From the NCBI RefSeq assembly GCF_900105385.1, contig NZ_LT629772.1, positions 2,728,001 to 2,792,000 on the forward strand: 64,000 nt of DNA, given 5' to 3'. Under the pieces are notes generated by a model that was not told where the DNA came from, made no database searches, and worked only from the letters and a program-made list of their open reading frames with translations. This document shows positions 32,550-54,085 of the stretch, one piece after another. This stretch comes from Microlunatus soli (GTDB lineage Bacteria > Actinomycetota > Actinomycetes > Propionibacteriales > Propionibacteriaceae). Within the stretch, counting starts at the first letter, position 1. Every line of letters starts with the position of its first letter. The position numbers were made by a program, and so were the translations under genes.

Positions 32550-32569
32550 GATGTGCTCCTTGGAGGCGT

Positions 32570-33751: not shown

Positions 33752-33755
33752 GCTG

Positions 33756-34748
33756 TCACCTCGCCATCCGGAGCCGCACCCGTGGGTCGAGCCAGGCCAG
33801 AGCAAAATCCGACAGCAGGGTTCCGATCACCGTCAGCAGGCTTGTCACGAGGATGATCGATCCGGCGAGGTACATGTCCTGACTGGTCAGCGAGCTCAGC
33901 AACACTGGCCCGGTCGTCGGCAGCGACAACACCTGGGCGACGATCACCTCGCCGGCGACCAACGCCGGCAGCACCCAGCCGATCGTGGAGATGAACGGAT
34001 TGAGCGCCACCCGCAGCAGATACTTCAAGATCAACTTTCGTTCCGGGACACCACGGGCTCGTGCCGCGACGACGTACGGCCGGCGTAACTCGTCGAGCAG
34101 GTTGGCACGGAGGATCCGAATCAGGCCGGCCGTGCCGGCGCTCCCGAGCACGATGATCGGCACCCAGAGATGGGAGAACAGATCCAGTAACTTGCCCAGA
34201 TTCCATCGCGCGTCGACGTAGTCGGGTGAGAACAGTCCGCCGACGCTCTGCCCGAAGTACCGGTAGCCGATGTACATCAGCACCAGGGCGATCATGAAGT
34301 TCGGCACGGCCAGCCCGAGGAAGCCGATCGTGGTGGCGATGTAGTCCCCGACCTTGTACTGCCGGACCGCCGAGTACAGGCCGACCGGCAACGCCACGAT
34401 CCAGGAGAACATCAAGGTGCAGAACGAGATCACGATGGTCAGCGGAAGGCGCTGGGCCAACACACTGGAGACCGAACGGTTCAACTGGAAGGACTCGCCG
34501 AAGTCGCCGGTGAGCACGCCACCGATCCACTTGAAGTACTGCACCCACAGCGGAGAATCGAGCCCGTAGCGCAACTGCAGTGCGGCGATCCGGGACTGAT
34601 CGACGTCGCCGCCCTGAGAACGCATCTGCGCGATGATCGTGGTCAGATAGTCCCCGGGTGGCAGCGAGATGATCACGAACGACGCGATGCTGATCAAGAA
34701 CAGAGTCGGGATCATGAACAGCAGCCGACGGGCGATATAAGCAATCAC
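33756..34748 (-). CDS. Oligopeptide-type ABC transporter permease (OppB/DppB type)
   Basis: 330 residues from a GTG at 34748 that overlaps the stop of the binding-protein gene (GTGA). Six membrane segments, FGESFQLNRSVSSVLAQRLP after helix 1 and the loop AARARGVPERKLILKYLLR are typical of the B subunit. Earlier in-frame starts would run inside the binding-protein gene and were rejected. Confidence 0.92.
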   Translation of the reverse strand: MIAYIARRLLFMIPTLFLISIASFVIISLPPGDYLTTIIAQMRSQGGDVDQSRIAALQLRYGLDSPLWVQYFKWIGGVLTGDFGESFQLNRSVSSVLAQRLPLTIVISFCTLMFSWIVALPVGLYSAVRQYKVGDYIATTIGFLGLAVPNFMIALVLMYIGYRYFGQSVGGLFSPDYVDARWNLGKLLDLFSHLWVPIIVLGSAGTAGLIRILRANLLDELRRPYVVAARARGVPERKLILKYLLRVALNPFISTIGWVLPALVAGEVIVAQVLSLPTTGPVLLSSLTSQDMYLAGSIILVTSLLTVIGTLLSDFALAWLDPRVRLRMAR

Positions 34749-36679: not shown

Positions 36680-36708
36680 CGCTACCACCTTTCATCATCG
36701 TAAGGTGA

Positions 36709-36743
36709 CTCTCACTCTAATGGAGAACTCCGCCTAGTGAGAG
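36709..36743 (-). promoter_or_regulatory. Inverted repeat and CTCCATTA word upstream of the transporter operon
   Basis: CTCTCACT (36709-36716) pairs perfectly with AGTGAGAG (36736-36743). Between them lies TAATGGAG (36718-36725; CTCCATTA on the coding strand), a word also found in front of the paralogue gene. Good position for IclR binding, 30-60 bases before the first start codon. Confidence 0.45.
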
Positions 36744-36787
36744 AAAACTTTCAGTTAGCGGAGCCCGAAGATCCCTGACCACCAGGA

Positions 36788-36806
36788 CCCTGAGTCTGTC
36801 GAAGGG
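36788..36806. repeat. Dispersed intergenic repeat, copy 3
   Basis: CCCTGAGTCTGTCGAAGGG, followed by a degenerate second piece (CTTGCCGAAGGG). Same family as the elements at 18553 and 21888; lies in the gap between the two transcription units of the 27-40 kb locus. Confidence 0.55.
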
Positions 36807-36870
36807 CCCCGAACTTGCCGAAGGGCTGCTTCTCGTAACCGACGCCGATCCGCAGCCCCCGCCCGCGACC

Positions 36871-39408
36871 TCAACCGGCCGCGGGCATCACGACGTAGTA
36901 GGGCTGATTGGCCAACGCGTCATCGAAGGCCGGATCCAGCGCCACCGCCCCACCCTCGTGCTCGACGGTGAAGCTGTACATCAGTGGATAGCTGGAATCG
37001 CTGTAGTCGGCGGGAATCTCGGCCCGATAGCCGTCCCCGGATCGCTGCATCTCGACCGACTGCCAGTGCTCGGCCTGGTTGACGTGCCGGAAGTTCAGCA
37101 CAATCTTCTTGACCGGCGCGGTCACCGAGACGTCGAGCGCGACCGGCTTGCCGCGATCGAACGCGTCCGGTGCCGTGTGTACAACTCCGGTTTGTGACGG
37201 CCGCGACGGCACCGACGATGTGAACGTCTTGGTGCTGTCCTCGGCTGCCGCGCGGAGCTCGTTGCCCATGGCATCGACGTCGGCCTCCAGCGCCGGCCTA
37301 CGGTCGGTCCAGCTGCCGTGCTCGCTGCGCTCCGGACCGAAGCGCAGGTTGGCCTGGTAGACGCCTTCGACCAGATCGCCGATCTCGGCCCAGACGTCGC
37401 GGGCGATCTTCGACTGGTCGTACGCCCGGCTCAGCCGACTCCGATCACCGGTGCGTTGCCAGAGGGCGTAGTCGGCTGCAGAGCGGAACTTCGCCGCGAA
37501 GAAGCGCCCCAGGCGCAGCAGCACTTCGACGTCGATCGCGGTCCGACGCAGCTGCGGCGAGGCATCGGTGGCGGCGGACAACTCGGCGGCCCCGGCGGCC
37601 GCTTCGTCGACGAAGCGCTGGAGCCAGTCGGCGACCTCCACGGGGGTGTAGCGGCCGTCGAGTCGGCCGGCGATCACGTCGTCGGCCCACTCGTTGATGA
37701 TGTAGAAGGTCTGCGGGTCGAACGGGCTCACAGTCCCCCACATCGGCGGTGCCTCGGTGTCGCTGCCGTGGTGCGACGGGTAGGCGCCTTCGGTGACCGG
37801 GAGGTTGGTGTAGACCTCGGGCCAGTTGCCGTTGTTGGAGCCACCGACACCATGCACGACCGTGATCAGCGGCAGGATCCGGCTGAGCGGTGCGAGCGTG
37901 CGTTCGACGGTCTCTGCATACGTGCCGTACGCCTGGTTGAGGTAGCCCTCCCACTCCCTGCGCGGCGCCTCGGGGTTGTAGAGCTTCCGGCCCCACACGC
38001 GATAGGTGTAGGCGTACTTGGTCCAGTCCCGCAGCCCGAGCTTGAGCTCGGGATCGATGTACGGGTCACGACGTCCTGGCGCGCCGGATCCCTTGCGTCC
38101 CTTGAAGAACAGCGGCTCGCAGATGTCCACGCCGAGTGCTCCGGCGAAGGTCGACAGCCGGCCGTAGCCGGCGGCATGCTCCGGGTCGCCCCACAGCAGC
38201 AGCTTCTGGGTGCCGGGCCAGACCCGGAAGATCAGATCGGCGCGACGATCCGAGCCGAGGAAGTCGGCATACCCGTAGCGGGTGAACCGGCGCGCGAACT
38301 CGGTGACCGAGGTCAGCTCCTTGCCGGGCGGTACCGGCTTGGACTCTTCGAGCCGGCGGATGGCTGCCTGATGGTAGGGCAGCCCCTGGTGTTCGGCCCA
38401 GTACTTCGCACCGAGGACGGGCTGCAGCCCCGGCTTGTTGACCGCGTCGAGGAGCGCGTCGTCGACACCCTTGGCGTGCATGTCGACCTGTAGTTCCTTG
38501 CCGCTTTGGGAAAGAGCCTCGAAGACCGGGTCCCAGAATTTCTCGTGCCCCTCGTCGGGGATGCCGCCCTCGTAGTGCACACGGAAGCTGAACCCGTCGA
38601 TCTCCGGGCAGACGCGGAGCAGTTCGGAGATCGCGGCCGCGGAGTAGTCCGCGTGCGTTTCCGGGGTTAGCCCGGTGATCGGGAATCGGTGGACCGAGTT
38701 GCGGCCGTAGTCGTAGGCGTGGTTCCACAAGCCCAGCTGGAAGTCCATCCCACGCCGCTTGGTCTCCCGGGCGATGAACTGGAGCATCCGCAGATTGGTC
38801 TCCCGCTCCTCGACGGAGACACCTTCGGCGGCGACGTTCCAGCCGGGAACGTCCAGCAAGAACGGGTAGGCGAAGCAGAGGTAATTGTCGGTGGCGCCGT
38901 TGCGATCGGCGCCGTAGTTGTACTGCATCCCGAGCGCCAGGTGGAAGCGGCTGAAGCGCGCCTGGGCGATCCAGTCCAGATACTCCGCCCAGAACTCTTT
39001 CGAGGTGAACCACGGCAGGTCTTCGTCCACGCTGGAGAACGACCGCATGATCCCCCGCACCGGCATCGTGGTCGACGAGGCAACGCCGTCCAGACCCTCG
39101 AGCGCGCCGCTCAGGTCTCCGGCGATCTCGACCTCATCGGCCAGCCCGACCAGGGCGTACGAAGCGCCCACGACGTCGGTCGCCTTGATCTCCAGCCCGT
39201 CGCCCGTCCGGACGTAGGAGTAGCCCTGAGTTCCTTGATCATCTTGTCGCAGGACCACTGACGAGGCGCCCGCGGGCGACTCCCCCACAGCAACACGTTG
39301 TACGTCTCCGCCCGACCGATCGCGGAGCAGATCCAGAGCCCAGTCGACGGGCGGCCCCTCCAGTTCCGGATCTACCTGCACTCCGACCACGAGCATGCTG
39401 TCGTCCAT
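36871..39408 (-). CDS. Large glycoside-hydrolase-like protein, paralogue 2 (family unassigned)
   Basis: 845 residues from the ATG at 39408: GGAAGG lies 4 bases before it, and from here the first conserved block (PVDWALDLL, residue 20) falls at the same distance from the start as in the paralogue at 27632 (PVEWAADTV, residue 19). The shared barrel blocks are GLWNHA, RVHYEGGIP, DMHAKGVDDALL, KYWAEHQGLPYHQAAIR, FTRYGYADF and RVWPGTQK, and it ends in an Ig-like domain with YYVVMPA. Cytosolic. Two diverged copies suggest related but different linkages in one substrate. Its own promoter region has two direct repeats that could be IclR sites. Confidence 0.65.
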   Translation of the reverse strand: MDDSMLVVGVQVDPELEGPPVDWALDLLRDRSGGDVQRVAVGESPAGASSVVLRQDDQGTQGYSYVRTGDGLEIKATDVVGASYALVGLADEVEIAGDLSGALEGLDGVASSTTMPVRGIMRSFSSVDEDLPWFTSKEFWAEYLDWIAQARFSRFHLALGMQYNYGADRNGATDNYLCFAYPFLLDVPGWNVAAEGVSVEERETNLRMLQFIARETKRRGMDFQLGLWNHAYDYGRNSVHRFPITGLTPETHADYSAAAISELLRVCPEIDGFSFRVHYEGGIPDEGHEKFWDPVFEALSQSGKELQVDMHAKGVDDALLDAVNKPGLQPVLGAKYWAEHQGLPYHQAAIRRLEESKPVPPGKELTSVTEFARRFTRYGYADFLGSDRRADLIFRVWPGTQKLLLWGDPEHAAGYGRLSTFAGALGVDICEPLFFKGRKGSGAPGRRDPYIDPELKLGLRDWTKYAYTYRVWGRKLYNPEAPRREWEGYLNQAYGTYAETVERTLAPLSRILPLITVVHGVGGSNNGNWPEVYTNLPVTEGAYPSHHGSDTEAPPMWGTVSPFDPQTFYIINEWADDVIAGRLDGRYTPVEVADWLQRFVDEAAAGAAELSAATDASPQLRRTAIDVEVLLRLGRFFAAKFRSAADYALWQRTGDRSRLSRAYDQSKIARDVWAEIGDLVEGVYQANLRFGPERSEHGSWTDRRPALEADVDAMGNELRAAAEDSTKTFTSSVPSRPSQTGVVHTAPDAFDRGKPVALDVSVTAPVKKIVLNFRHVNQAEHWQSVEMQRSGDGYRAEIPADYSDSSYPLMYSFTVEHEGGAVALDPAFDDALANQPYYVVMPAAG

Positions 39409-39415
39409 GACGCCT

Positions 39416-39450
39416 TCCAGATAGTGGAGATCGTTGCTCATATAATGGAG
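39416..39450 (-). promoter_or_regulatory. Direct repeats in front of paralogue 2, candidate IclR sites
   Basis: On the plus strand TCCAGATAGTGGAG (39416-39429) and CTCATATAATGGAG (39437-39450) match at 10 of 14 positions and begin 21 bases apart, two helical turns. The second shares TAATGGAG with the site at 36718. They overlap the leader and ribosome-site region of the gene. Confidence 0.4.
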
Positions 39451-39642
39451 TAGTTGGAACGGGTCCGCAATCGTTTGGACAAGATTCCGGTGAAAGCCTG
39501 AGCTTGTCGGGCGCTCCGCGCGCCCGTGCCGGCGCCCACCTCGACCAACGAGCGCGGACCGCACGGTGTGCTAGCTTCACGCCCACATTGGCTTCGTCGC
39601 GGGCAGGAAGCCGACGAGACAGGGCGGAGGAGAATGGCATCC

Positions 39643-40407
39643 GTGACGAAGAGAGGCGGAGGCGTCCAATCGGTCGAGCGGGCCTTCGCGCTACTCGAGC
39701 TGATGGTGGAACGAGGCGATCAGTCCCTGACGGAGTTGGCGCAAGCGATGGACCTTCCGGTCCCGACCATCCACCGCTTCCTCCAGACCCTGGTCGGGTT
39801 GGGATATGCGAGGCAGCGCGATAACCGGCGATACGGTCTGGGTCTCGGGCTCGCTCGGCTGGCCAGCCCGGTCGGGACGGAGTTCTCCCCCATTGCGCAA
39901 CCGCATCTCGCGAGCCTGGTGGCCGAGATCGGTGAGTCGGCCAATCTGGCGGTGCTCGACGGCAACATGGTCGTCTACGTCGCCCACGTCCCGTCCCCGC
40001 ACGCGATGCGGCTGTTCACCGAGAACGGCCACCGCGCCCACACCCACGCGACCGGAGTCGGCAAAGCGATCCTGGCCCAGCTGCCGGAAGCGCACATCGA
40101 TCGCATCCTCGACCGCGCCGGCATGCCGGCCGCGACCTCGCGAACCATCACCGACCGCGCCAAGCTGCACCGGGAGTTGGCCAAGATCAACCGCCAAGGG
40201 TACGCGACCGATGCCGGGGAGCAGGAGGACGGCGTCTTCTGTTACGCCGTCCCGGTCCTCGGGCTGCCCATCTCGATGGCCGTCTCCGTCTCGGGGCCGA
40301 CGTTCCGGATGACCAAGGAGTTGGGTGCGAAGGCGATTCCTTTGTTGCAGGCCGAAGCCGAGGCACTCCGAAGGGACTTCGCCGGTCCTCTTTCCGACGT
40401 CACTTGA
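39643..40407 (+). CDS. IclR-family transcriptional regulator
   Basis: 254 residues from a GTG at 39643, 10 bases after GGAGGAG; an ATG at 39634 would leave only one base of spacing. Helix-turn-helix (about 10-70, SLTELAQAMDLPVPTIHRF) and a GAF-like effector domain with ATGVGKAILAQLP and DDGVFCYAVPV-type strands. Divergent from paralogue 2, so it is the obvious regulator of the enzyme/transporter locus. It may act as activator or repressor. Confidence 0.88.
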   Translation: MTKRGGGVQSVERAFALLELMVERGDQSLTELAQAMDLPVPTIHRFLQTLVGLGYARQRDNRRYGLGLGLARLASPVGTEFSPIAQPHLASLVAEIGESANLAVLDGNMVVYVAHVPSPHAMRLFTENGHRAHTHATGVGKAILAQLPEAHIDRILDRAGMPAATSRTITDRAKLHRELAKINRQGYATDAGEQEDGVFCYAVPVLGLPISMAVSVSGPTFRMTKELGAKAIPLLQAEAEALRRDFAGPLSDVT

Positions 40408-40937: not shown

Positions 40938-41249
40938 TCAGGCACGATCACCGAGCGTAGCCTCAGGCATCGTCGAGGTCCTTGAGGAACAGCTGCTTGG
41001 TCGCTCTGATCTTGAAGTCCTCGCCCCTCAACTCACCGCACCAACAACCCCCAGGCGTGTCACTCAGCGCCCACCGGAGCGATGAAGAGCCGCGATACGA
41101 GACCGTGAGCCCCGTCGCCGCGAAGCTGCTTGACTAGGTCTTTGGCCTAGCAAACTGAGCGTCGATCGACGGTGCCGTGTGCTTGGGCCAACTGATCTGA
41201 GGCGGATCGTTACTCTTGGAGTGATGCCGAGAACTTCCGCTGTCGGCCA
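40938..41249. other. Gap with coding-like scraps, no gene called
   Basis: Minus-strand frames show short protein-like pieces between stops (about 28 residues ending near 41059, and a longer frame ending LFLKDLDDA near 40966), perhaps decayed remains of a gene between the transposase remnant and the helicase. Nothing here can be named. Confidence 0.3.
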
Positions 41250-44200
41250 TCACGCACTCTCAAGCAATGCGTTAAACAGTTTGATCGGTGTGCGGTCGAG
41301 GACGTACGTGTCAGAAACCGTGATGTGTGACAGACCGCGCCCCCGCAGTTCAGTCACGGCTCGTCTCATGTTCGGATTCCAATGTGCGTCTTCATGTCGC
41401 CAAAGCGGATGGCCGATGACGACAGCGGCACCTTGGCCCTCTGGTGAAACGAGTGCTGGTAGCCCGTTGACCACATGTTGTTCGATTCGGAGGTGCGAGC
41501 CGTAACCGTGAGCGAAGCTCTGCATCAACGCAGCGGTTCGATCTGCCCAGTGGGACGGGTCGAGGCTTCTTCCGAGAACAAGGTCAACGACGTCCAGCCC
41601 GAGGCGCCAGTCCAGCGCCCAGTGATTGAAGCGATTCTCGTAGTTACGGAGGCAGCCCGGGCATGAGGAGGTGCAGGCTGTTCCGTGCGGGTCTTCACGG
41701 AGTCGTTGACCTGTATCTTCTCGGATTGAGGTGAGGAGCTTCCCAAACGTGGCCGGCTCGCCGAGTTCCAACGCATACCCAGCGCCGTTGTCGAGGGCAT
41801 CGGCAAGGAACACCCGCGCTGAGACGGTGGTGCTGTTAAGTGCGGGCTGAAGTCCGACTTCAAGTTCCGACTGCTCAATGTCCAAGTACTCCTTAGCAGC
41901 GTTGCGGAGCAACTCAGCAAAGGAGAGTAATGCTCCTTTGCCCGCCGGACACGCCCAGGGCAGGGTGGCGACTGCCCCTTCTGGCAATGCCAGATCATCG
42001 AGGCCGAGCAGTAGCACATCGGTTCGACGGACTTCGCCGATCGCTGCTGAATCGAGGGCTTGCCCGCCAGTCCGCATGAACTCGGGAAGAGGGCGCCGAT
42101 AGAGATCGCGATTCTGAGCAATCACCGACCCGTCCGACTGCCGGCTCAGATCGAATAGCTTGCGGTTGTTGTCGTTCACTGCTACGACCTCCGCTTGCTC
42201 GAGTAGTCGAAGTGAAATCCCGTGGAGCCTCGTTTCCTGCCCGAGCTCAGTGTTGGCGGAAAGCTCGGAGTAGCCGGCGTACATCGGCGTGATGTGCGAG
42301 TCGTCGTAGTCCGGCTGGCTATAGATCGTCCGGTAGCCTTCAGGCTGATAGAGCGAGAACGCCCTCATTTGTTCGCCGCAGACCGAACACCTGAGTGACT
42401 CGTCCGTAGGCCGAGTATCGAGGCTGCCACACTGTACCTGTACGCAACGGTGAATCGGGAAGGGTGCCCCGAGAGGATCTTTGGCTCGTGTACTTTTCCC
42501 GATGACGTTGTAGGCCGCAAAGCCCACCGCTAGGTGCTCTGCGCCATCCTTCACAACGACGGCTCCAGGAGCAAATGCCGTGATGGACATTCGAAGATCA
42601 CGATCGGCGACTGTATGCCTGTCTACGTCGCCAGCACCACGGAGCTGTTTTGAATAGAGCGGTCGTACCCGCGTCGGGAAACCGAACATTGGGAGCACCC
42701 CGGCGTTTGCAAGCAACTCGCTGAGTTCGGCGTGCTGGAAGTACGGATTCCCGACGGCTTCGTCGATGTCGTTGGCGAGACCGTTTCGCGCCCAGTCATC
42801 GAGCTCGTCTGCATCGAGAGCCGTGTAGGCACTGAACCGTGCGCAGACGACGGGGACGTCATTGGATGCCTCGAGCCATGCGACGACCTCGGCTCTCCGT
42901 TGCGGCCAGTCTTGGGTTAAGCCGAACGTCCCGTGGATGCTGTCACTAGTGCGCCTCGGCGGATTCTGGGCTGTGAGGAATGCCCTGCGGAGCAGTTCGG
43001 CTGCGATCACTCGGCGGACAATCCGAGGCCGCGACAAGTCGATGAACGGCGGCGGAGGGTCGGCGGCGGTCATCTTCTCCGGGGCCTGGAAGTAGTAATC
43101 ATCGTGGGCTCGGTCCCGCGAGACGGTGACCGCGAACGAGAACGGTTGACCTGAACGTCCGGCTCGACCGACCCGCTGTTGATAGTTGAACCGTTGAGGC
43201 GGCATGTTCGCCATCGCTACGGCTCTGAGCGATCCGATATCGACACCGACCTCCATTGTGGTTGTCACCGAAAGCAAATCCAGGGGGTCCGCCAGAGCGC
43301 TCTCGGCGGGTGCAGGAAGTGTCGCGCCCTTGAATAGGCGTTGCCGGGTCCGTTGGTCGTTGAGTCTGGTCTGACCGGTAAGCTCAGCGACCCTCATACG
43401 TCGAAGCGGTTGCGAGGCGAGCCATCCGTAGTAGTCGAACTCTTCGGACCATTCCGCCTCGTGGAGCACACCATTCGGGCATTCCTCATTGGTGCAGATG
43501 CCGGCCGAGGGATGCAGGTGCGTGGTTCCGCAGTTCTCGCAAACCCAGACCGTGTCGCCAGGCGTCCTGAGTTCCAGAGCGTCTTGACCAGTCTGGGTCT
43601 TTAGCGCCCAGGTCTCGTCGACGATGCCACTCCTGCGCAGAAACTCGCCGAGGTTCGCCGCCAGGGTCTGCCAGTCAATCTGATGTTTCGCGGCGACGCG
43701 CTTCAGGTAGGTGACGACAACCTTCGGCGTCGAATTTGATCGGGCTGAATATCCGCCCTCGAACCGCTTTGCAATCCCGAGGAGACGAATGACACTGGCC
43801 AGGACATCGCCTGCGGTCTCCGCCGAGATTCCCCAGCTATTGGGGGCGGGCGGCCGCGCTCGAACTACACCCAGTCGAGTGGATTCGAGGTCTCGTGAAG
43901 CTCGATCGAAAACTGCTTCGGCAACAGCCTTAGCGGTGAGTCGATAGCGATCTTGGCGGATCGGACGTGCCACGGCATCAGCCAGTGGCTCCCAGGCATG
44001 ACGGACTGGAGGTTCGTAAGCACGGTACCAAGGGGCATCGCCCTCGCTTTCTGCAACGGATGGCCCTGGTCCAGCTGGGTTCACGCCGACTTCGAGCATC
44101 ACCCGCTCGGCGGCGTGGATGAGTGTTGCCCACGGCAGGGATTCGGCCTCTCGCTCCGCAGCAGCGATCATCTCTTCGTCTGCTGAATCGGCTGCACCGA

Positions 44201-46601
44201 GACTTTCGAGCCGGATTTTGTCGAAGAGTTCCCGACGGCTGGCGCGCAGTTGCTCGCCCCGTCGGAGATCATCACCAGCGAGTTCACCGATGAGGAGCGC
44301 TCGGAGCAGCGGCACTGGGTTCTCGCGTCCGTGCAGAAGCTGCCGAACGACTTGCCGCACTTGGTCACGGAAGTTGTTGAGCGCAATCCCGGCTGCGATG
44401 CGTGCAGAGTCGTCCCTGCTGTCGGTGAAGACGATCGTCCTCGATTCCGCCGCGTCAGAGCCCAGGCTACGGAAAAGTTGGGACACCGCCATTTGGTTGA
44501 GCTGCGCGCGACCTGAAGTGTGTGCCCGGATTGGCGACCGGACGTTTCCGGCGAAGTACACAGCTGCGTCGTGGTTGTCCTGACTCCCACCGCAGCGAGG
44601 GCAGGCTTCCGGAAGCGCGGGCAGGGCCAGCCCACTGTCATCGCCCGCATTGTGGCTAAGAACCACCGCTGGGATGCCGTCAGGAAAACTGCCAAGGGTG
44701 AGCGAACCGAGTTTCGGATTCCAGGTTGCCGCACCGAAGTTGGTCTCGATCGTGGCCTGATTCTCGTCTATGTCGGCAGGGAGCTTGTGCCGGTTTGGGG
44801 CGTCGGGAACGGGCGAGCCGAGCCACAGCCATCGGTACTCGTCATCGTTCCTCCGGTAAACGAAGTCGCCGGAGTTCTCACCGGGCGTAACCGGAGTGGT
44901 GGACAGCACCACAGCGCCGCGACCGGGCCGCTCGACGACGTAACCGCCGAGGCTTACGTCGCCACACTCGAAGCAGTACAGGAGTTCAAGTACGCGTGCG
45001 CCACACTCAGCGCACGTGGACCGTGGCGTGTCATACATCCGACCGACTCGCCGTGGCTCTGAGCCGGTGCCACCAGGGCAACCGGGATCAGAGCAGGCCC
45101 AGAGCCCACGCATCCCTCGCATCATCACATGACCGCGGAACGGGATTGCGGGCTTGGCGACGTCGCCGAGACCGGCGAGCATCGCCCCCAGCGCCGTCGG
45201 TGCAAGTGGGTCGTCCGCGAAGAGGCGGGTCGCCACTGTGTCGATACGCGTTGCCTTCGGACGGCTATCGTCTTGGTTCATGCACGCTGCCGCAATGGTG
45301 TCCGCCCATCGATCCCTCGTCGCGACATCTCCAAGCTCGTTCGGCGAGATGCTCAACACCTCCGCCGCGGTTGGCTTCTCGCCAGAAACGAGTGATCGTG
45401 GCTGTCCCGGTTCGATTACGAAGGACGTACGGTCGACGCCGAAAAAGCGTTCTAGATACTCCAGACCCGAGTCGTCTCCGGGGAGTGAGGCGCTCGTCGC
45501 GATGATTCTGAATTGATCGGACGACGGCTCGAGTCCAAGCCGCGATGCGAGGTTTCGCACAACCATGCCGACTTCGGCACCGGTGCTGCCGCGGTACAGG
45601 TGCAGTTCATCGACGACCAGGGTGAAAACATGATCGGACGATTGCTGAAGCCAGCGTCGCGTCGACTCGAAGATTGGCTCCTCGACGTCGCGCATCAGCA
45701 TCACGTTGAGCATCGAGTAGTTCGTTACTAAAACGTCGGGCGGAGTGGCGATCATGTCCCAGCGGGTGATGAGCTCGCCGGCGTAGGGGTCCTGGAACTG
45801 AGCAATGAGATCCGGGTCGTTGAACTCAGCAAGCTTGGCGTTCAAACGCGATAGATCACGCATGTCCCGGGCCGCATCTGCGGTCGCCGGCCCGGAAGCC
45901 TTTCCAGTCGGGATTCCACCTGAACCCGGCGTCGCACCAGTGTAGCGACCGAACCATAGATCAATCGGTGATTCCTGATTCCGGAGACCTCGCACAGCTC
46001 GTCGAAGCCGCGCAACTTGGTCTTCGACCAATGCGTTAGTCGGATAGAGGATCACCGATCGGACCGCCGCCGGGCTTGCGTCGACGGCTCGTGTCGGTCG
46101 CCAGTTATCAGCCTGCCGGCTCAGATCCCACCACTCGTGAATCGACGTGAGAGGTGTCCCCGTCCGCTTCTCGGCCACGATCCGGGTAAGGAGCGGAATC
46201 AGGAAGGACTCGGTCTTTCCAGAACCAGTGCCCGATGTTACAACGGGATTGTGAGAGATGCTCTTCGCGAAATGCGTCGCGAGCGCGGCCGCCTGATGCT
46301 TGCGCAGCATCACATCCGGGAGCTCGTCAGGGGTCACACCAAAGACTGCCCGGAGTACATCGCCGAGATCACGGGCGTCGACTCTCGCCTGCCTCGCGGC
46401 CTCGTCGACAGGTGCAACCCCATCGTAGGGAAGCACAGGCTCAAGCATGAGCGGTGCGAACAGGTTCCCTTGGCCTTCGAGTAGAAGACGCCGTCGCTCG
46501 TTGCTGAGCAGCTGGTCTCGTAAGGCATAGGCGGTATCGATATAGCGGAGGAACGCGTCTTGGAGCTCGTCGGCGATCTTCACTGGAGTTGGAAATGGCA
46601 T
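41250..46601 (-). CDS. Large DEAD/DEAH helicase with DUF1998-like C-terminus (Druantia DruE-like)
   Basis: 1783 residues from the ATG at 46601, 5 bases after the stop of the 987-residue gene (an earlier in-frame ATG at 46712 lies inside that gene). Motor motifs: Walker [10 protein letters not shown] (near 123-131), DELH in [11 protein letters not shown], motif III TSASL, then [14 protein letters not shown] and the second-domain motifs TMEVGVDIG and QRVGRAGR. Cysteine clusters ([39 protein letters not shown]) and the end [24 protein letters not shown] fit a DUF1998-type domain. Length and layout match DruE of Druantia better than the shorter DISARM DrmA. Cytosolic antiphage helicase. Base composition is less GC-rich than the flanks. 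Confidence 0.8.
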
Positions 46602-46606
46602 GGTTC

Positions 46607-49570
46607 TCACCGACTTACTCGGTCGTAGATGATGTCCGCGATCTCTCGCGGCACTGATGGGTACTGAAGCATCCGGTGATTGACGATCTCTCGCGGCGCC
46701 CTGGCTGAGCAAAGAGCGAGCGCGCGCCCGTACAGCGCTGGCAGATCCGCGCCCAACGGCGTAACTACCGATCGACTGCGCGAATGGTAGCCAACCAAGG
46801 GATCACATGCCCACAGGTTTGCGATGTGTTTCACGATCTGCGCGTTGCCGAGTCCAATGGTTCCGTTCGCGATGTCGTCCGCTGTGCGGATCGCGTAAGT
46901 CGAGCCGAAATCTTTGAGTCGGTAGGCGCCGACTTTGACGAGTGACTCTGCCTGACGCCACGAGGCGGCAGACGTGTCCCAGAACTCCGCCGACCTGTGT
47001 GTCGGCACGATGACACGCTTGAGTGATTTCGCCACATCGCTAAGTGCAGGGAGCGCCTCAGCGATGTCCTTCGCTGGCGAAGCATCAAGCACGGTAAACC
47101 CCGCTTCCATCAAGGTCGAGACCGGTAACGTGCCGCAGACCTCGACGCGGGAGAGTTCAGCGTCAACTGTCGCAGCGACTTCGGCGTAGCCATCGAGCAA
47201 CCCCTTGAGCCGATCCAGCAGTGCACCGGAACGAGATCCGATGAGAACCCACCGATCGTCATCGGTCGGCACAAGAGTTGCCGTGTTTACAGCCCACTCC
47301 GTCACCTGGTGATAGGCGTCTCTAGCAACGTCGACATGCCCGACGACCTCAAGCCGCCGGAGGAAGGAGTCGGCGAACAGGCCGGAGCCTTCAATCTGAG
47401 CGGCGATCCGCTCGAATGTCCCGAGCGATCCGGTCCCGACATGATTCACCGCATCAAACGCGACCTCAAAGTCTGGCTCAGCCGACTCGGTCACCGGCGG
47501 GATCTTCGGAAGAACGACGGCTTTGGCTGCGGCATCCTTCTTCTTCGCAGCCCAGGGAGTGCCGGCGAAACGTCGCACGAGACCGCAGCCTGTGCATTCG
47601 CCTTCAATGCTCCGCGTAGGTGTTTGGCCCGCGAGCACGGGGGGAAGGAGGAACCTGTGCTTCCCGGTGACTAGACACGAGTCGCTCGCCGTCGGGGTAC
47701 CCACTCGCGTCTTCGCCGGCACCGCGGTGGACGGGCCTCGCTTCCTGGGCATGAACTCCGGCATGGGGGTTACAGCTTCGCCAACGAGCGAGTTGAGGCC
47801 AACGGTCCTCGCACCATTCACATGACTCGGCCACTTTGGAGGACCAGCGGTCAATGGCCAGCAAGGCGAGGAGTTAGGTGAGTAGACCAGGCGGATATCC
47901 ACCTCCTCGACCCTGAACTGCGGGGTGCGCGAGGAACGCAGCCTGAGGAGCGCCGTCGATGACGGCTTCGACGCCTCGTCAACGGACATCGCAATGACAT
48001 ACTCACCGTCAGATAGACCACGACCTACGAGCGGAAGGACTGCAAGCTCGCCAGTCTGAACAGACTCAGCTACGACCATGGCTGGGTCGATTCGGGTGCC
48101 GCGGTATACGCGGATGTGGATCGAAGACCCCCCAGCGGCGACAGCGACAACTTCGGGAGGTTCCAATGTGGACCACTTGCGAAGCAGGCCGGGAAGCACG
48201 AAGCCTCCTCGCAGCGTCAGGCTCGTCCGCGCGCGCGGGGCGAGCGGTAGGAGATCGAGATGCACCTGCCCTGTAGGAGCGGAGACAATCTGGACATGCT
48301 GGTAGACCAGCCATCCTTCTGGGTTGCCGGGTAGGTCAGCGAGCTCTTGCCAGCCCGGCCGGGCGTGAGAGTTGAGATGTGCCTCGACGCGCTGGCGTGC
48401 ATCGGACCTTGCTAAGACAACACTGTCCTCACCGAGCGATATGCGTTCGGCCTCGACAAACGCCCCTTGGAGGTCGTCCCACCGGAGCGGTGTTACGCGC
48501 TTCGGTCGGCGACCAAACGGTCGGCGGTCGTCCTCTCCGAACTCTCCCGCAAGCTGTTCGCCAATGAGAGAAGTCGCACTGACTCCCTCTACACCTGAGA
48601 GCCGCGTGGAACCACCCGGCCCGGAGATGGTCGGAACAATCGACTCCCCGTGCGCGAGCTGGAACCGAGCGCGGTCTGGCTCTTCTGACCGGTAAGGCAG
48701 CATCAAATTGAACTCAATCGACTTACGCGGGAAGGTCCGCAGGAAGGCCAGTAGACGCGTTGCGACAACGGGTCTTGCAGATGCGACCGCCTCGATCCCT
48801 GACCCGTCCCACGTTTCGAGTTCGAGACACGCGGCATCGACGATTCGCTGCCTGGCAGCCGGGACACGCCAGAGACTCGCGAGGTGCGAACTCAGAGGCA
48901 GGCTCGGATTTGCTGTTGCATAAGGTTCCATCGCGAGGCTCATGTCGTCTGGCGCGATACGCACACCGGGGGGCAGACCCTCGATCGCGAAGAGTTCGTG
49001 GAGACCGGCGCGATCATGCTGCCGGACAACCGCTTGCGACATCGGTAGCCCGATGAACGCATGTCCTCCGACCGCGTAGGCAGTCGGGATTCCTCGCTCG
49101 CCCTCCCATGCCTCCAGCCACGAGTTCAATGATCCCCACAGCAGATTGGCAATGCGACGGTAGTCGTTCTCGACTCTCTGGTGCTCGCTCGTGGGGACAT
49201 GAAGCATCCGATGCAGCCTTGAGTAGTAGTTGTGGGCGGCAAGGTCCCCATCCGCTTGCATCTGCTCTGCGGCGATCGACAATACTACTAAGAGGGGGAG
49301 TGCCGGAGGTGTTTCGAGTGGCTGGCGTTGATGGTGTCGCGCAACCTCGGCCTGCCAATGAAACGGGGCAACCCCAGGCAAATTCAGTTGGAGCGATGAC
49401 GTGGCGACGGACGCTAGCCCGGCAAGCGTCTGGTCCTCAACCTCCGCAGCTTCAAGCACAGCACGGATGGTCTCGGCGTCCGCCAACGCGTAGACGGGCC
49501 GGCCGGCTTTCGATGGATCGAACATGACGTCAGCGATCGCCTCGCTCACGCGTTCGTACTCGGAACCCAC
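46607..49570 (-). CDS. 987-residue protein of the Druantia-like operon, function unknown
   Basis: Starts at a GTG with AAGGGAG 6 bases before it. I see no ATPase, nuclease or methylase motif. Visible: an alpha-rich N-terminal third with [11 protein letters not shown] and several Trp-rich stretches, a beta-rich middle (350-600), one CxxC pair (GECTGCG, near 700) preceded by [13 protein letters not shown] that could complete a zinc site, and a C-terminal part ending in [10 protein letters not shown]. Its place immediately before the DruE-like helicase is that of DruH in type III or DruG in type II Druantia; which it resembles, if either, needs profile comparison. Probably a DNA-recognition or scaffold subunit, by inference. 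Confidence 0.6.
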
Positions 49571-49663
49571 GGCAGTCTCCCTTGCACCACTCTGTTGGTC
49601 CCAAACCTAGCGAAGAACTCCGACATCGTGGGCGTCAACGGTCTCCGAATTTGTCGTGGCAGA

Positions 49664-51037
49664 TTATGCGGCAGAGTGCCGACTGCTCTCCATACCTACT
49701 GAGGGCTGGTCAAGACCACAGAGGAGCGGCTCAGCGATCGCACGTACTACCTCGGCGTTGACAGCGTTGCCGAGCGCCTTATATGCGCGCAGATCGCCAT
49801 CGGGAAGGGAGATCGGGCCCAGGCTCTGGAGCGCGGCGCACTCTGCCGGTGTCATATAGCGACGAATGCCGACAATATCTTTACCGAGGATCGGGACCTG
49901 GGTGTGCGTCATGGCGATGAGACTTGGAGCAGTGGAAGTCCGCTTTGCCCGGATACCCGAAGCTCGCACTTGCAGAACGTAGCTGTCAATCCGTCGTCGG
50001 CCGCCCTGCACGTTCCACTCGAACTTCTGAAGGCTCGACGAAAGATTCCACGGCTTCCACTCGTCGAGCCACGGATCGATCCATTTTATATTAGCCGAGT
50101 AGAACTGTCGGTTTTGGCGGATGAAGGCTTGTTTCCATGAGGGGAACTTGAGATCTGTCGTTCGACGCGCATGGCTCGGAAGGAGAACAGACTGATCGGC
50201 CTGCGTCAGCCCTTTCAGTTCGAACCCGAAACTGCCTAGGGCGTGATCCAAATCGCGCGGCCCTAGCTCCTTCCAGATCGCCGGGGGCGTGGCGTCCTCG
50301 TAGGGATACGTTGCCCGAAACTCCATTGACCATATAGGGAAAGACGGCAATTTCAACGACTTCGGAGCGCGCTTTAGAAAGTCGTCCCACATGTCAATGG
50401 CCTGCAATGTCTGAATCGGGATTTCTCGGACTGGCTTCGCCCGCCTATCCAAAACGCTGCCGATATCCGTCTTCTGCCGGGAGGGGGTCGGCCACTTATA
50501 CCCACCGAGTCCATCGAGCGAACCTACGAAATACGCTCGTTCCCGAATCTGGGGCACGCCGAATTCGTGCGGCGAGTATTTGTGCACATCGACTGCGTAG
50601 CCGAGGTCTTCGAGTTCCTTACGAATAATGCCAAGAGTATCGCCGTTTTGGTGACGCAGTATGTTCGGCACGTTCTCAAGGATGAAGCGACGGGGTCGCT
50701 TCTCCTTCAGAATCGCAAGCACTTTGAAGAACAGCTTACCCTGAAGCGTGTGGCCGAATCCAAGTTGCTCACCGGCCTTCGAAAATGGCTGACAGGGAAA
50801 GCCCGCCGTAAGAACGTCATGCTCGGGAACCTCTTGAGCAATCGCTGCTTCGTCCTCCAAATCGTCGACGTCGCCCCAAGGCTGGATATCAAAATTGACC
50901 TTGTATAAAGCGTTCAGCGTTGCATCCCACTCGGCCGCGAACACGCCGACGCCGCCAAGCTGTCGCAACGCGACGTGGAAGCCCCCGAGCCCGGCGAACA
51001 GGTCGATGAACCGGAAGGCTGCCGCCTCGTCGGCCAT
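49664..51037 (-). CDS. DNA (cytosine-5) methyltransferase (DruM-like)
   Basis: 457 residues; GGGAGGAG lies 6 bases before the ATG. C5-MTase motifs in order: I DLFAGLGG (12-19), IV GFPCQPFS with catalytic Cys82, VI ENV (121-123), VIII QIRERAYFVG (163-172), a target-recognition region of about 180-380, then IX/X with ALGNAVN near 428. It methylates a DNA cytosine with S-adenosylmethionine and would mark self DNA for the helicase system. No separate restriction endonuclease gene is adjacent, which speaks against a plain type II R-M system. 93 bases separate it from the next gene of the operon. Confidence 0.92.
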   Translation of the reverse strand: MADEAAAFRFIDLFAGLGGFHVALRQLGGVGVFAAEWDATLNALYKVNFDIQPWGDVDDLEDEAAIAQEVPEHDVLTAGFPCQPFSKAGEQLGFGHTLQGKLFFKVLAILKEKRPRRFILENVPNILRHQNGDTLGIIRKELEDLGYAVDVHKYSPHEFGVPQIRERAYFVGSLDGLGGYKWPTPSRQKTDIGSVLDRRAKPVREIPIQTLQAIDMWDDFLKRAPKSLKLPSFPIWSMEFRATYPYEDATPPAIWKELGPRDLDHALGSFGFELKGLTQADQSVLLPSHARRTTDLKFPSWKQAFIRQNRQFYSANIKWIDPWLDEWKPWNLSSSLQKFEWNVQGGRRRIDSYVLQVRASGIRAKRTSTAPSLIAMTHTQVPILGKDIVGIRRYMTPAECAALQSLGPISLPDGDLRAYKALGNAVNAEVVRAIAEPLLCGLDQPSVGMESSRHSAA

Positions 51038-51253
51038 GCGTGACTCCTCCCGTCAGAGGCCGCAACGATACTGCCATCTACCGACAGTTGATCGGATGCT
51101 CGCCGGCGGCTCCCGAGTAAACCGGAGAGCCATGACCAACGCAGCTCTTCGTCACCACTGACCTCTCGGCCGCGAACTGCTGCAGCACTGTCAGTCAGCG
51201 ACACCATCGCTCTCACGGTTGTTTCCCGGGCACGGTGTTGGGAATCGCCCCCC

Positions 51254-51487
51254 TTAGATGCCGGGGAAGGCCACTTCGATTGCCTCTTTTAGGAGGGCTG
51301 CGCGTTCCCTGTCAAGCTGAATCGTCTGGCTTACCTTCGGCTTCGACATGCGAGCATCCGACCCGTACGTCGATATCTGGAGCCAGCGGATGCCACCGGC
51401 CTGGAGGACGCTCCACTGGGCGTCTGTCTCGGTCGGGTGTGGAGAGCTGTCCGAACTCGTTTGGGTGAAGGTGCGGATGCGGGCCAT
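51254..51487 (-). CDS. Small conserved-looking protein at the head of the defence operon
   Basis: 77 residues: MARIRTFTQ..., a WLQISTYGSDAR strand pair and SQTIQLDRERAALLKEAI helix. I remember proteins of this pattern in many actinobacteria, often beside restriction-modification genes and sometimes misannotated as methionyl-tRNA formyltransferase; function unknown. TAGTTT lies 6 bases before the ATG with no ribosome site between, so the message may be leaderless. 216 bases separate it from the methyltransferase. Confidence 0.65.
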   Translation of the reverse strand: MARIRTFTQTSSDSSPHPTETDAQWSVLQAGGIRWLQISTYGSDARMSKPKVSQTIQLDRERAALLKEAIEVAFPGI

Positions 51488-51872
51488 GTCTGAAAACTAC
51501 TGGATGAGTTCGCTACGCGTACCTCGGAACAAGGGCGGCATCCTAAATCGATGCCGTTTGGGCCATTGCCCCGTGTCGTGGCAGCTGTCCAGAGACGACG
51601 TGGCACCAACCACAAGCTGCGGACCTTTTCGGGATCGCAACGGGTGGGGCGGCCGCCTTGGCGGAGCCCGTCGGGCCGTGCTCAGTTCGTTCTGACTGAG
51701 CCTCACTATATAGATCGATCACGGCAATGCCGGAGAACCCTGCGTGGCCGATTGCAGCCCCGCATCAAAATGGATAGCGTCCGCACCAAGTCCGCTTCGG
51801 CCCGACAGGCGCGTCTGCGACAAGCCTCCACCCGCTGCGGGAAGTCCGTCATGTCTTCCTGGGGTTTTCGTC
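51488..51872. other. Intergenic region between divergent defence genes
   Basis: No convincing gene. It must hold the promoters of the small protein (TAGTTT -10, minus strand) and of the DUF2075-type gene; an AT-rich CACTATATAGATCG near 51704 on the plus strand is a candidate -10 area for the latter. Confidence 0.4.
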
Positions 51873-53726
51873 GTGCCGCTCTTCCGCGGGTCCGTTCAGC
51901 ATCTTCGATCCAAGATCGACAACGGTTCCCTGGTGCCCACCTTGTCCGAGCAGTATCGCCACCAGTTGGGTCGTTCGGTCCCCGACAGCGAGGCGCGGTC
52001 CTGGGCGCGCAGCCTCGACGTGCTGTCGGCTGACCTGCTCGAGGCCGGGCTCGGCTCGGTCGAAGCGCTGGTGGAGTATCAACTGCCGCTGACCAGCAAG
52101 CGGGCCGACGTCGTGCTCTGCGGGACGCACCCGTCGACGGGGCGGGATCAGTACGTGGTGGTCGAGCTCAAACAGTGGAGCCGTGTGCAGATGCTCGACG
52201 GCACGGACAACGTCTGCCTCTTGGAAGGCCTCGGCGAGCAGCTCCATCCGCTGGAGCAGGTCCGCACCTACTGCACCCACCTCACCGACTTCATCGGCAC
52301 GTTGAGCGATGAGCCTGACGCCGTGTCAGGAGTCGCCTACCTCCACAACGCCACTGATCTCGATGTCGATGCGCTCTTCGAGTATCCGCAGGACGAGCTC
52401 GGCCGGCTGTTCACAGGACAGCGCCGCGGCGACTTTCACACGTTCCTCCAAAGCAGGCTCGACGGCAGCGCGGGTGTCGACGCGGCCGACCGCCTGCTGT
52501 CCTCGGCAGTGCGGCCGAGCAAGCAACTGCTCACCCTCGCAGCCGATGAGGTCCAGCAGAGGGAACAGTTCGTGCTCCTGGACGAGCAGCGAGTCGCGTA
52601 CGAGCTGGTGATGCGCGCGGTCGACTCGTCCTACCGCGCCAACACCAAGGAAGTGATCATCGTGACCGGCGGGCCGGGCTCGGGCAAGAGCGTCATCGCG
52701 CTCTCCCTGCTCGGCGAGCTGTCCCGGCGCGGTCGGACCGTGCTGCACGCGACCGGTTCCAGTGCCTTCACCCAGACACTCCGCAAGGTGGCCGGCAACC
52801 GCGCGCCGCGGGTGAAGCAGATGTTCAAGTACTTCAACCAGTTCGTCGACGCCGAGCAGAACGGTCTGGACGTGTTGATCTGCGACGAGGCGCACCGCCT
52901 TCGCGAGACCTCGGCCAATCGGTACACCGCGGCGCATCTGCGGACCGGCAAGGCCCAGGTCGCCGAGCTGATCGACGCCGCCCGGGTGCCGGTCTTCCTC
53001 CTGGACGAGCATCAGGTCGTCCGTCCTGGCGAGCTCGGGACGGTCGCGGACATCAAGGCTGCCGCGACACAGGTCGGTCTCACGACTCGTGTCGTCGAGC
53101 TCGACGGGCAGTTCCGCTGCGGCGGTAGCCGGGCGTACGAGACCTGGGTGCTCCGACTGCTCGGACTTGCGCCAGGAGGGCCGGCACGTTGGGACGGCGA
53201 CGAATCGTTCATCCTGCGTACCGCTGTTGGTCCGTCGGAACTGGAGAGTCTCCTGCGTAACCGCCTGGAGGCCGGATACGGCGCCCGCCTGGCAGCCGGT
53301 TTCTGCTGGCCCTGGAGCGACCCGATTCCTGGTGGTCTCAAGCTGGACGTGGAGATCGGCGACTGGCACAAGCCCTGGAACAACAAGAAGCAGACGTCGC
53401 ACGCCGGTGCGCCCGGAACTCCCTTCTGGGCCAGCGATCCGGCTGGCTTCGAGCAGGTCGGCTGCGTCTACACCGCGCAGGGCTTCGAGTACGACTACGC
53501 CGGTGTGATCATGGGCCCGGATCTCGTCTGGCGGACCGATCGATGGGTTGCCCGGCCGGAGCACAGCCACGACACCGCCGCCAAGCGCGGCACACCCGAG
53601 CAGTTCGACAGGGCCGTTCGTAACACGTACAAGGTCCTGCTCACCCGCGGGATGATCGGCACAGCCGTCTACTCCACTGATCCGGAGACCCAGCACCTCC
53701 TCGACGAACTCATCCCGCAGCGTTAG
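51873..53726 (+). CDS. DUF2075-type helicase with N-terminal PD-(D/E)XK nuclease-like domain
   Basis: 617 residues from a GTG at 51873 (PLFRGSVQHLRSKI is the usual opening of the family); the open frame before it is Pro/Arg-rich and looks non-coding. The N-terminal domain has RADVVL (near 78) and VVVELKQW (near 97), the D...ExK core of PD-(D/E)XK nucleases. Then a superfamily I P-loop: Walker A GGPGSGKS (about 265-272), Walker B LICDEAHRLRE, a Gln-Arg motif ELDGQFRCGG, and near the end QGFEYDYAGVIMG and NTYKVLLTRG. Such proteins occur in defence islands and probably cut or unwind invading DNA. 14 bases before the MazG-like gene. Confidence 0.82.
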   Translation: MPLFRGSVQHLRSKIDNGSLVPTLSEQYRHQLGRSVPDSEARSWARSLDVLSADLLEAGLGSVEALVEYQLPLTSKRADVVLCGTHPSTGRDQYVVVELKQWSRVQMLDGTDNVCLLEGLGEQLHPLEQVRTYCTHLTDFIGTLSDEPDAVSGVAYLHNATDLDVDALFEYPQDELGRLFTGQRRGDFHTFLQSRLDGSAGVDAADRLLSSAVRPSKQLLTLAADEVQQREQFVLLDEQRVAYELVMRAVDSSYRANTKEVIIVTGGPGSGKSVIALSLLGELSRRGRTVLHATGSSAFTQTLRKVAGNRAPRVKQMFKYFNQFVDAEQNGLDVLICDEAHRLRETSANRYTAAHLRTGKAQVAELIDAARVPVFLLDEHQVVRPGELGTVADIKAAATQVGLTTRVVELDGQFRCGGSRAYETWVLRLLGLAPGGPARWDGDESFILRTAVGPSELESLLRNRLEAGYGARLAAGFCWPWSDPIPGGLKLDVEIGDWHKPWNNKKQTSHAGAPGTPFWASDPAGFEQVGCVYTAQGFEYDYAGVIMGPDLVWRTDRWVARPEHSHDTAAKRGTPEQFDRAVRNTYKVLLTRGMIGTAVYSTDPETQHLLDELIPQR

Positions 53727-53740
53727 GGCAGACTGAACGG

Positions 53741-54085
53741 ATGGCTGATCTGATCGAGCTTCGCGACGGGATGCGTAGCTTCACCGAGGAGCGTGACTGG
53801 TCTCGGTTTCATGATCCGAAGTCGCTGATCCTGGCACTGGTCGGCGAAGTCGGCGAGCTCAGCGAGCTGTTCCAATGGCTGCCTGCCGAGACGGCGCAGG
53901 AGCTGGCCAACCGCGAGCCACTGCGGCCCCGCGCTGAGGAAGAGATCTCCGACATCTTGCTCTACCTCATCAGGCTGGCCGACGTCCTGGACATCGACCT
54001 CGGCGACGCCGCAGAACGCAAACTTGCGGCCTCATCACAGAAGCACACTCCTGGATCGCAGCCGCACAAGGTCATCCCGGGCTGA
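53741..54085 (+). CDS. MazG-like nucleotide pyrophosphohydrolase
   Basis: 114 residues, all helical. The Mg-binding acids of the family are in place: EVGELSELFQW (ExxE near 37-41) and EEISDILLYLIRLAD (ExxxD near 67-71). The short single-domain form resembles dCTP pyrophosphatase/iMazG, which hydrolyses dNTPs to dNMP and pyrophosphate. Fourteen bases after the DUF2075-type gene, so one transcript. Nucleotide depletion or removal of modified nucleotides in phage infection is a reasonable guess; housekeeping use is also possible. Confidence 0.85.
   Translation: MADLIELRDGMRSFTEERDWSRFHDPKSLILALVGEVGELSELFQWLPAETAQELANREPLRPRAEEEISDILLYLIRLADVLDIDLGDAAERKLAASSQKHTPGSQPHKVIPG

Follow-up and report, generated by a model that had tools for sequence, protein, structure and literature searches.

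A Druantia-related operon of Microlunatus soli with a one-piece DruF beside DruE and no recognized DruG

Genes of the locus and identity of their products

A Druantia-related operon was analyzed on the minus strand of a 64,000-nucleotide stretch of Microlunatus soli (contig NZ_LT629772.1, positions 2,728,001 to 2,792,000 of the forward strand). The whole stretch is called the window here, and coordinates of its features are window positions. An earlier sequence-only reading had described four minus-strand open reading frames (ORFs), encoding a 77-residue protein, a C5-cytosine methyltransferase, a protein of 987 amino acids (aa) and a helicase of 1783 aa, and all four were recovered in place (Table 1). 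The start of the helicase gene is best placed at the ATG at 46601, which gives 1783 aa; the mechanical ORF is longer, with 1820 aa from an upstream TTG. The TGA stop of the 987-aa protein (DruF) overlaps an in-frame GTG and the ATG of the helicase (DruE) lies five bases further on, indicating that the two genes are tightly coupled, and there is no space for an extra gene between them. The methyltransferase gene ends 93 bases before DruF. The full-length family matches of the helicase and the 987-aa protein, together with a match of the methyltransferase to the DruM model over residues 3-432 of 457, indicate that the operon is not a chance arrangement. The G+C content of the ten 2-kb segments starting at 41000-50000 was 0.586-0.625, and that of the other segments from 30000 to 64000 was 0.617-0.671.

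Table 1. Features of the operon and of the adjoining divergent genes, in window positions
Feature	Position	Strand	Evidence
77-residue ORF	51254-51487	-	ORF list
DruM, C5-cytosine DNA methyltransferase, 457 aa	49664..51037	-	Pfam DNA_methylase 4.8e-58; DruM2 PDLC00034 229 bits; alignment
One-piece DruF, 987 aa	46607..49570	-	DruF2 PDLC00016 999 bits; DruL4 match; hhalign against split DruF and against DruL
L domain of DruF, residues ~701-987	46610..47470	-	hhalign against DruL, E 1.1e-24, probability 99.6%
Cys/His knuckle C632-x5-H638-x20-C659-x2-C662 at the F/L junction of DruF	47585..47677	-	alignment, pattern search
DruE, YprA-type superfamily 2 helicase, 1783 aa	41250..46601	-	DruE2 1489 bits; Pfam DEAD, Helicase_C, MZB
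Schlafen group 3 helicase gene	51744-53726	+ (divergent)	Pfam 5.6e-83; D...ExK pattern at residues 122-143 (pattern match)
Small ORF after the Schlafen gene	53741-54085	+	BLAST relative in L071

The helicase had been called DruE-like, and this call held. It matched the PADLOC model DruE2 with 1489 bits over residues 42-1817 of the 1820-aa ORF and DruE4 with 1319 bits. An identity as DISARM DrmA, which had been named as an outcome that would overturn the call, was rejected because DrmA scored only 32 bits. A Walker A motif, a DELH box, a QRVGRAGR motif and the cysteine cluster of the MZB (DUF1998) domain were found, and the short domain at the C-terminus carries an HPLW motif. The motor motifs and zinc-site cysteines are intact, and the motifs are kept in all 18 DruEs compared from the clade described below. 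The Pfam search recognized DEAD, Helicase_C and MZB and no nuclease family. A search of solved structures with the DruE family profile retrieved 9wae_A with 1581 bits, as well as 9tu7_Y and a YprA helicase; the DruE of the type II locus L021 was searched too. DruE is the single protein common to all Druantia types (PMC13192584).

Comparison loci were taken from plasmids, among which 22 records had a DruE match and 17 were examined. Type II loci with the order M-F-G-E were L015, L016, L017 and L021-L025, and loci with split F-L-E genes were L018, L019, L020, L026, L027 and L028. When ten comparison proteins were run against PADLOC, the Agrobacterium locus L017 gave DruF2 and DruG2, L020 gave DruF4 and DruL4, Nostoc L018 and Deinococcus L019 gave DruF/DruL matches, and Sinorhizobium L015 gave DruF2 but no DruG. 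The second protein of L015 was labeled DruG by BLAST kinship to the L017 protein (1e-6), and the others by profiles built here.

Residues 3-986 of the 987-aa protein matched the DruF2 model PDLC00016 (1030 positions, 999 bits), and another long DruF2 model scored 694 bits. Shorter DruF2 and DruF4 models cover stretches ending between residues 201 and 456, and the DruL4 model matched residues 736-983 (1.3e-11). The protein consists of an F domain (~1-526), a junction with a Cys/His knuckle (~527-700) and an L domain (~701-987). In hhalign comparisons, DruF of the window type matched split DruF over residues 1-526 (E 2.1e-44) and DruL over residues 701-987. Type II DruF holds both domains as well, matching split DruF over 16-460 (E 2.2e-12) and DruL over 554-807 (E 7.6e-10). 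Compared directly, the window DruF family and type II DruF matched less well (first domain 1.8e-6, second domain 0.0084), so the relation runs via the split families. In ten split pairs DruF and DruL sum to 966-1085 residues, near the one-piece length, and the split point varies (554-565 plus 413-449 aa in three pairs, 653-746 plus 302-361 aa in seven). Since the first half of the protein corresponds to type IV DruF, its last 290 residues to DruL, and type II DruF contains both, DruL appears to be a detached end of DruF. A fusion of F and G had been envisaged for this protein, and an ordinary full match to DruF or DruG had been named as an outcome that would refute the reading. That outcome came about in part, as the protein proved to be a full-length DruF; it gave no DruG match, and the fusion was rejected with an hhalign probability of 0.2% against DruG.

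Pfam gave nothing above cut-off for the window DruF and one stray match among 15 relatives, and the search of solved structures gave no match for the window DruF, two type II DruF queries or two DruG queries. No DruH was found among all 10 PADLOC matches at E 0.1, the library's content of DruH models being unchecked. The knuckle pattern C-x5-H-x19to24-C-x2-C has four residues that are invariant in a 90-row DruF alignment. It is present in the window and in all 18 relatives described below, and absent from 8 type II DruFs, 9 split DruFs and the 20 DruL rows examined (19 of them different). From its pattern, the knuckle is predicted to bind zinc. A second one-piece F-L DruF, of 1153 aa and without the knuckle, lies in genome G1007 (L081, 6959-10420), with a DruE that falls among split-labeled loci. 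This placement indicates that the one-piece DruF arose or was kept at least twice.

The methyltransferase scored 229 bits with DruM2 and 233 bits with a general type II methyltransferase model, so the DruM name depends on context; it also matched DISARM DrmMII with 168 bits. The motifs that we take to be catalytic (DLFAGLGG, PCQPFS, ENV, QIRER and GNA) are present.

The F-E lineage, its methyltransferases and its neighbors

A one-piece knuckle DruF beside DruE (F-E) was found in the window and 18 relatives (L010-L014, L059-L071). A genome-contig scan with DruF gave only three loci, and most relatives came from order, class and phylum genome scans; a 197-residue DruF fragment (G650) is not among the 19 loci, and G1007 is counted apart. 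F adjoins E on one strand in all 19 loci, with F before E in 18 and E before F in L066, and, across the 18 loci other than L066, F and E distances correlated with r 0.985. The reversed locus L066 (10014-18264, G668) has its DruE in two ORFs of 1007 and 740 aa, either split genes or a frame break. Hosts were actinobacteria for 17 loci and alphaproteobacterial plasmids for two, in line with the earlier proposal of a variant type in actinobacteria. Counting the window genome in each, matches were found in 12/391 genomes of the order (11 full length, one fragment), 16/394 of the class (6 of the full-length knuckle type, the others being short-DruF loci and G1007), 3/97 of the family and 5/396 of the phylum. 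The 18 other same-genus genomes listed gave no DruF match. Of 8000 candidates scored in a protein search, 189 were relatives, and the 120 of these that were listed include named ones from Agromyces, Rathayibacter, Tessaracoccus and others. Phage records gave no DruE match at E 1e-20, and no DruF relative was confirmed in viral contigs.

In a tree of 44 DruEs, the window and 17 relatives formed one clade of 18 rows and the eight type II DruEs formed a separate clade, each with support of 100/100. The DruEs of 17 split-labeled loci all fell outside the window clade; these loci were labeled by their short DruF, and the L part was recognized in 14 and not in L074, L079 and L080. The tree omits L066, with its DruE in two frames, and the Hymenobacter locus L029, with its DruE in three ORFs.

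The DruG profile gave no match near any of the 18 relatives in the stretches read, nor in 15 carrier genomes, in a search that had no internal positive control, and no DruG was among the PADLOC matches listed for the window operon proteins. The same profile found DruG in all eight type II loci; because L015-L017 were in the profile itself, the independent tally is 5/5 (L021-L025, E 4e-22 to 5e-31). By these comparisons, only DruG appears to be missing from the window system relative to type II. The sequence-only reading had suggested that F or G might have been lost, and the absence of G bears this out in part. However, the DruG-bearing loci are limited to one clade of the DruE tree (8/8), so G may have been gained there rather than lost here; the root of this tree is unsettled. 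DruG itself gave weak coiled-coil and SMC-type matches only.

Methyltransferases of the window subfamily (E 1e-50 or better) were found in 11 of the 19 loci. Three others have distant enzymes (L010, L011 and L013; E 1e-11 to 1e-14), which adjoin a restriction endonuclease gene in L011 and L013, and in five none was recognized in the stretch read, one of these (L064, G435) having a copy ~21 kb off. An adjacent, co-directional M-F-E arrangement occurs only in the window, L012, L059 and L069, all in one shallow subclade with DruEs 87-97% identical; elsewhere M is divergent, downstream or separated. Between L012 and L069, the DNA is 93.6% identical across 8344 aligned bases that begin 12-15 bases before DruF and end 16-17 bases after DruE. 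Just upstream, DNA identity is 70.5% in the stretch that includes the methyltransferase gene; the two methyltransferase proteins are 67% identical, and that of L069 is closer to the window enzyme (84.5%). The methyltransferase has thus been exchanged next to a nearly constant F-E. These alignments show that F-E moved as a unit, separately from M, and the methyltransferase is an optional, exchangeable companion.

Methyltransferase genes of this kind were also found on their own. At E 1e-40, they occur in 30 of 245 order genomes; among 31 hits, five were at F-E loci, 20 had their surroundings fetched and six weaker ones were unfetched. No F, E, L or G was found in the 20 fetched stretches, two of which (L093 and L106) come from genomes carrying F-E elsewhere. 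In the methyltransferase tree, F-E-linked and solo copies are interleaved: the F-E-linked label required 9 changes, against a shuffled mean of 10.1, and 134 of 500 shuffles were as low. This tree gave long-branch warnings and was built without L104, where an overlapping ORF concealed the main methyltransferase ORF. The solo copies, the interleaved tree and the L012/L069 exchange weakened the candidacy of the methyltransferase as a fixed component. C5-methyltransferases were present in the stretches of all eight type II loci. In the Nostoc sp. C052 plasmid (L018, 3797-14580) a C5-methyltransferase lies directly upstream of a split locus (M-F-L-E), so DruM is not confined to type II.

Other arrangements were observed around the methyltransferase. 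In L014 (1774-7970) and L101 (4225-10338) a window-subfamily enzyme stands with a protein of 632-633 aa, which has a GmrSD domain in L014, and a helicase-like protein of 933-936 aa with an MzaC-type match; the trio is beside F-E in L014 and without F-E in L101. Near solo methyltransferases, ORFs of ~970-1180 aa form two families (L089/L091/L092/L095/L103/L104/L105 and L087/L088/L100), 64-89% and 76-95% identical, with no PADLOC match in the three tested; they are possibly wrong-strand ORFs.

The 77-residue ORF was matched in none of the 18 F-E relatives by tblastn and was rejected as a component. Of the 77-M-987-E order whose recurrence was to be checked, the M-F-E part reappeared, in L012, L059 and L069, but the small ORF did not. 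Look-alikes of it (YGSDxR...KVSQxxQLD) occur at L089 5094-5330 and L106 5296-5733, in stretches that have a DruM-type methyltransferase but lack F-E; the L106 genome carries F-E ~21 kb from this stretch. The 77-residue ORF may accompany the methyltransferase or be a general neighbor.

Downstream of DruE, a nuclease-type gene follows directly in 6 of 18 relatives: a PD-(D/E)XK nuclease in L060, L061, L071 and, by BLAST kinship, L062, and a protein with a weak NERD and UvrD match in L010 and L011. The latter proteins were considered as kin of the Schlafen-type gene of the window and gave no significant BLAST match. In the window, the next two minus-strand ORFs after DruE (353 and 897 aa) had no PADLOC or Pfam match, and no nuclease was recognized there. 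The divergent Schlafen helicase gene and the small ORF after it have BLAST relatives side by side in the F-E locus L071 (16144-17877 and 17855-18934), and L094, a methyltransferase locus that lacks F-E, has a relative of the helicase at its edge. This may be a separate defense pair.

Genome G556, from the same genus, is collinear with window positions ~30348 to 40368 at 81-83% DNA identity and has no DruF match, which places the left edge of the variable region between 40368 and 41250; no right edge was found. Restriction or recombinase genes neighbor F-E in L012-L014, including a large serine recombinase near L012 with a related ORF in L069, and CRISPR genes neighbor the split relative L019. 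On the Shinella oryzae plasmid (L010, 1325-11765), an operon divergent from a one-piece F-E locus contains a cytosine methyltransferase and a protein with a DndH match at its end. ARAGORN called a tRNA-like feature with an odd four-base anticodon at 63624-63721 on the plus strand of the window, which is probably weak.

Proposed mode of action and alternative explanations

Building on the observed gene content, DruF domain make-up, DruE clade, tight F-E pairing and M exchange, we consider it fairly probable that the operon represents an anti-phage Druantia lineage with two constant genes (one-piece DruF and DruE), an optional exchangeable DruM and no DruG, acting as follows. As a sensor or clamp, DruF would hold DruE and control the timing of its activity, and the junction knuckle would bind zinc and help contact DNA or DruE. 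With ATP, DruE would load at the ends or single-stranded parts of invading DNA and unwind or strip it, so that replication would be blocked. DruE has no recognizable nuclease, thus any cutting would come from host enzymes or from the nuclease genes next door in some relatives. Type III DruE engages intermediates that contain single-stranded DNA (PMC13192584), and type III blocks phage DNA circularization and replication (PMC13316683); by analogy, DruF could be the counterpart of the type III partner that acts with DruE. Cytosine methylation of the host chromosome by DruM would cause F-E, or a neighboring nuclease, to spare it. Self-marking is the usual reading of such methyltransferases, and here it is the least secure step of the scheme.

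Several points weigh against this proposal. The type III mechanism may not transfer, because type III DruE has PLD nuclease domains and its partner DruH was not matched by the 987-aa protein. No phage experiment on the window lineage was found in the literature searched, and the DruG search of 15 genomes contained no positive control. DruM-like genes without F-E are common, so nothing specific here argues for host protection by DruM. Solo copies cluster somewhat in the methyltransferase tree (8 changes against a shuffled mean of 11.9; 12 of 500 shuffles as low), and there is a correlation between M and E distances (11 loci, r 0.755, p 0.0002; 8 loci, r 0.491, p 0.005), indicating that M is not wholly independent of F-E.

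The methyltransferase is where the closest alternative departs. F-E could be the whole defense, and the enzyme, solitary or restriction-linked, only a defense-island neighbor that gives no protection from F-E. This has a lower but appreciable probability; it differs from the proposal above in the methyltransferase step only, and the two estimates overlap. It fits the five of 19 loci without a recognized methyltransferase and the three with distant ones only, the frequency of copies elsewhere (30/245 order genomes, with no F, E, L or G in 20 fetched of 26 outside hits), the label changes equaled by 134 of 500 shuffles, and L014, where the enzyme belongs to its own divergent operon, a like trio standing without F-E in L101. 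However, a subfamily copy lies near F-E in 11 of 19 loci, four of them co-directional and directly before DruF in an operon-like way, type II stretches contain C5-methyltransferases throughout (8/8), and the M-E distance correlation also argues against a mere neighbor.

An ordinary type II system, with a DruG that is encoded elsewhere or is too diverged to be recognized and with all four parts still cooperating, is unlikely. The best PADLOC models for E, F and M are indeed DruE2, DruF2 and DruM2, and the genome search for DruG lacked an internal control. But DruG was missing near all 18 relatives and from all 15 carrier genomes with a profile that found 5 of 5 outside copies, no gene fits between the window DruF and DruE, and the window DruE sits in another clade than those of the eight type II loci. 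Slightly less probable again is a modification-dependent system, with DruM as the specificity part and F-E positively recognizing a DNA methylation state as in type IV restriction. Druantia I and II are grouped with McrBC-related CoCoNuTs (PMC12458937), and M is exchanged next to a nearly unchanged F-E. However, the coiled-coil CoCoNuT-type protein of type II, perhaps DruG, is missing in the window, and attacking DNA marked by the system's own methyltransferase would presumably be suicidal without a further switch. A helicase operon for DNA repair or plasmid exclusion is very improbable: YprA-family helicases include repair enzymes (PMC12458937), but DruE matched DruE profiles over its full length, the distribution is patchy (12/391 order genomes, with no match in the 18 other genomes listed for the genus), the collinear same-genus genome lacks the system, and relatives adjoin restriction or recombinase genes (L012-L014) or, in the split relative L019, CRISPR genes.

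Returning to the anti-phage F-E lineage, two further claims are put forward jointly and tentatively, with less confidence than the lineage itself. The cassette of knuckle DruF and DruE may be a separate Druantia type, independent of DruG and moving as a clean block, with the methyltransferase exchanged like a specificity module. The ancestral DruF may have been one F-L protein, with type IV DruF and DruL being this protein split at different points in different lineages. The comparison made here reduces the partners of types II and IV to one two-domain protein, DruF = F + L, which explains DruL. Partner function in Druantia is known only in part, for type III, and F-E is the smallest candidate set for Druantia function. 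Moreover, near-identical F-E genes with differing methyltransferases offer a natural experiment for asking whether Druantia distinguishes self from non-self by methylation. Tools requiring DruG or a separate DruL could overlook or mislabel such loci.

Comparison with known systems

The PADLOC-DB profiles already hold a DruF of the window length, so the proteins themselves were not previously unseen, and unappreciated diversity has been noted within types I and II (PMC12458937). We found no account of an M-F-E lineage lacking DruG, of DruL as a part of DruF or of the methyltransferase exchange in the literature searched, which excluded most subscription papers and the original Druantia paper. 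The sequence-only reading had noted that the operon fits neither published set, and M-F-E indeed matches neither type II (M-F-G-E) nor type III (H-E).

DISARM likewise has a YprA-type helicase and a C5-methyltransferase, but the window helicase is DruE by more than 1400 bits over DrmA, and no other DISARM protein was among the matches listed (all 10 DruF matches, the best 25 of 32 helicase matches and the best 25 of 60 methyltransferase matches). PMC12458937 refers to Druantia I and II as type IV CoCoNuT and describes the C-terminal domain of their DruE as an inactivated Vsr nuclease. The window DruE also has a small C-terminal domain. However, no coiled-coil CnuB-like protein was recognized in the window, and DruG is perhaps the counterpart of that CoCoNuT protein.

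Like type III (DruH-DruE), the window system has two constant genes with a large partner before DruE. In contrast to type III, this partner matches DruF models over its full length, not DruH, and the PLD nuclease domains carried by type III DruE (PMC12458937) were not seen in the window DruE. PADLOC defines its type IV by DruE, DruF and DruL and does not include DruM and DruG, both of which type II requires (PMC8565338). It shares with the window the F and L domains before DruE and the absence of DruG. Separate genes encode F (554-746 aa) and L (302-449 aa) in the ten type IV pairs measured, against one gene in the window, the split DruFs have no knuckle, and the window has a DruM.

Type II (DruM-DruF-DruG-DruE), reported only in Proteobacteria (PMC8565338), shares with the window a C5-methyltransferase, a DruF with F and L domains and a DruE of the same family. 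The window system differs in having no DruG, in its DruF (~990-1050 aa with the knuckle for the window type, against 785-927 aa without it in eight type II loci), and in its DruE, which has a mechanical ORF of 1820 aa against 1935-1994 aa in type II and belongs to a separate clade.

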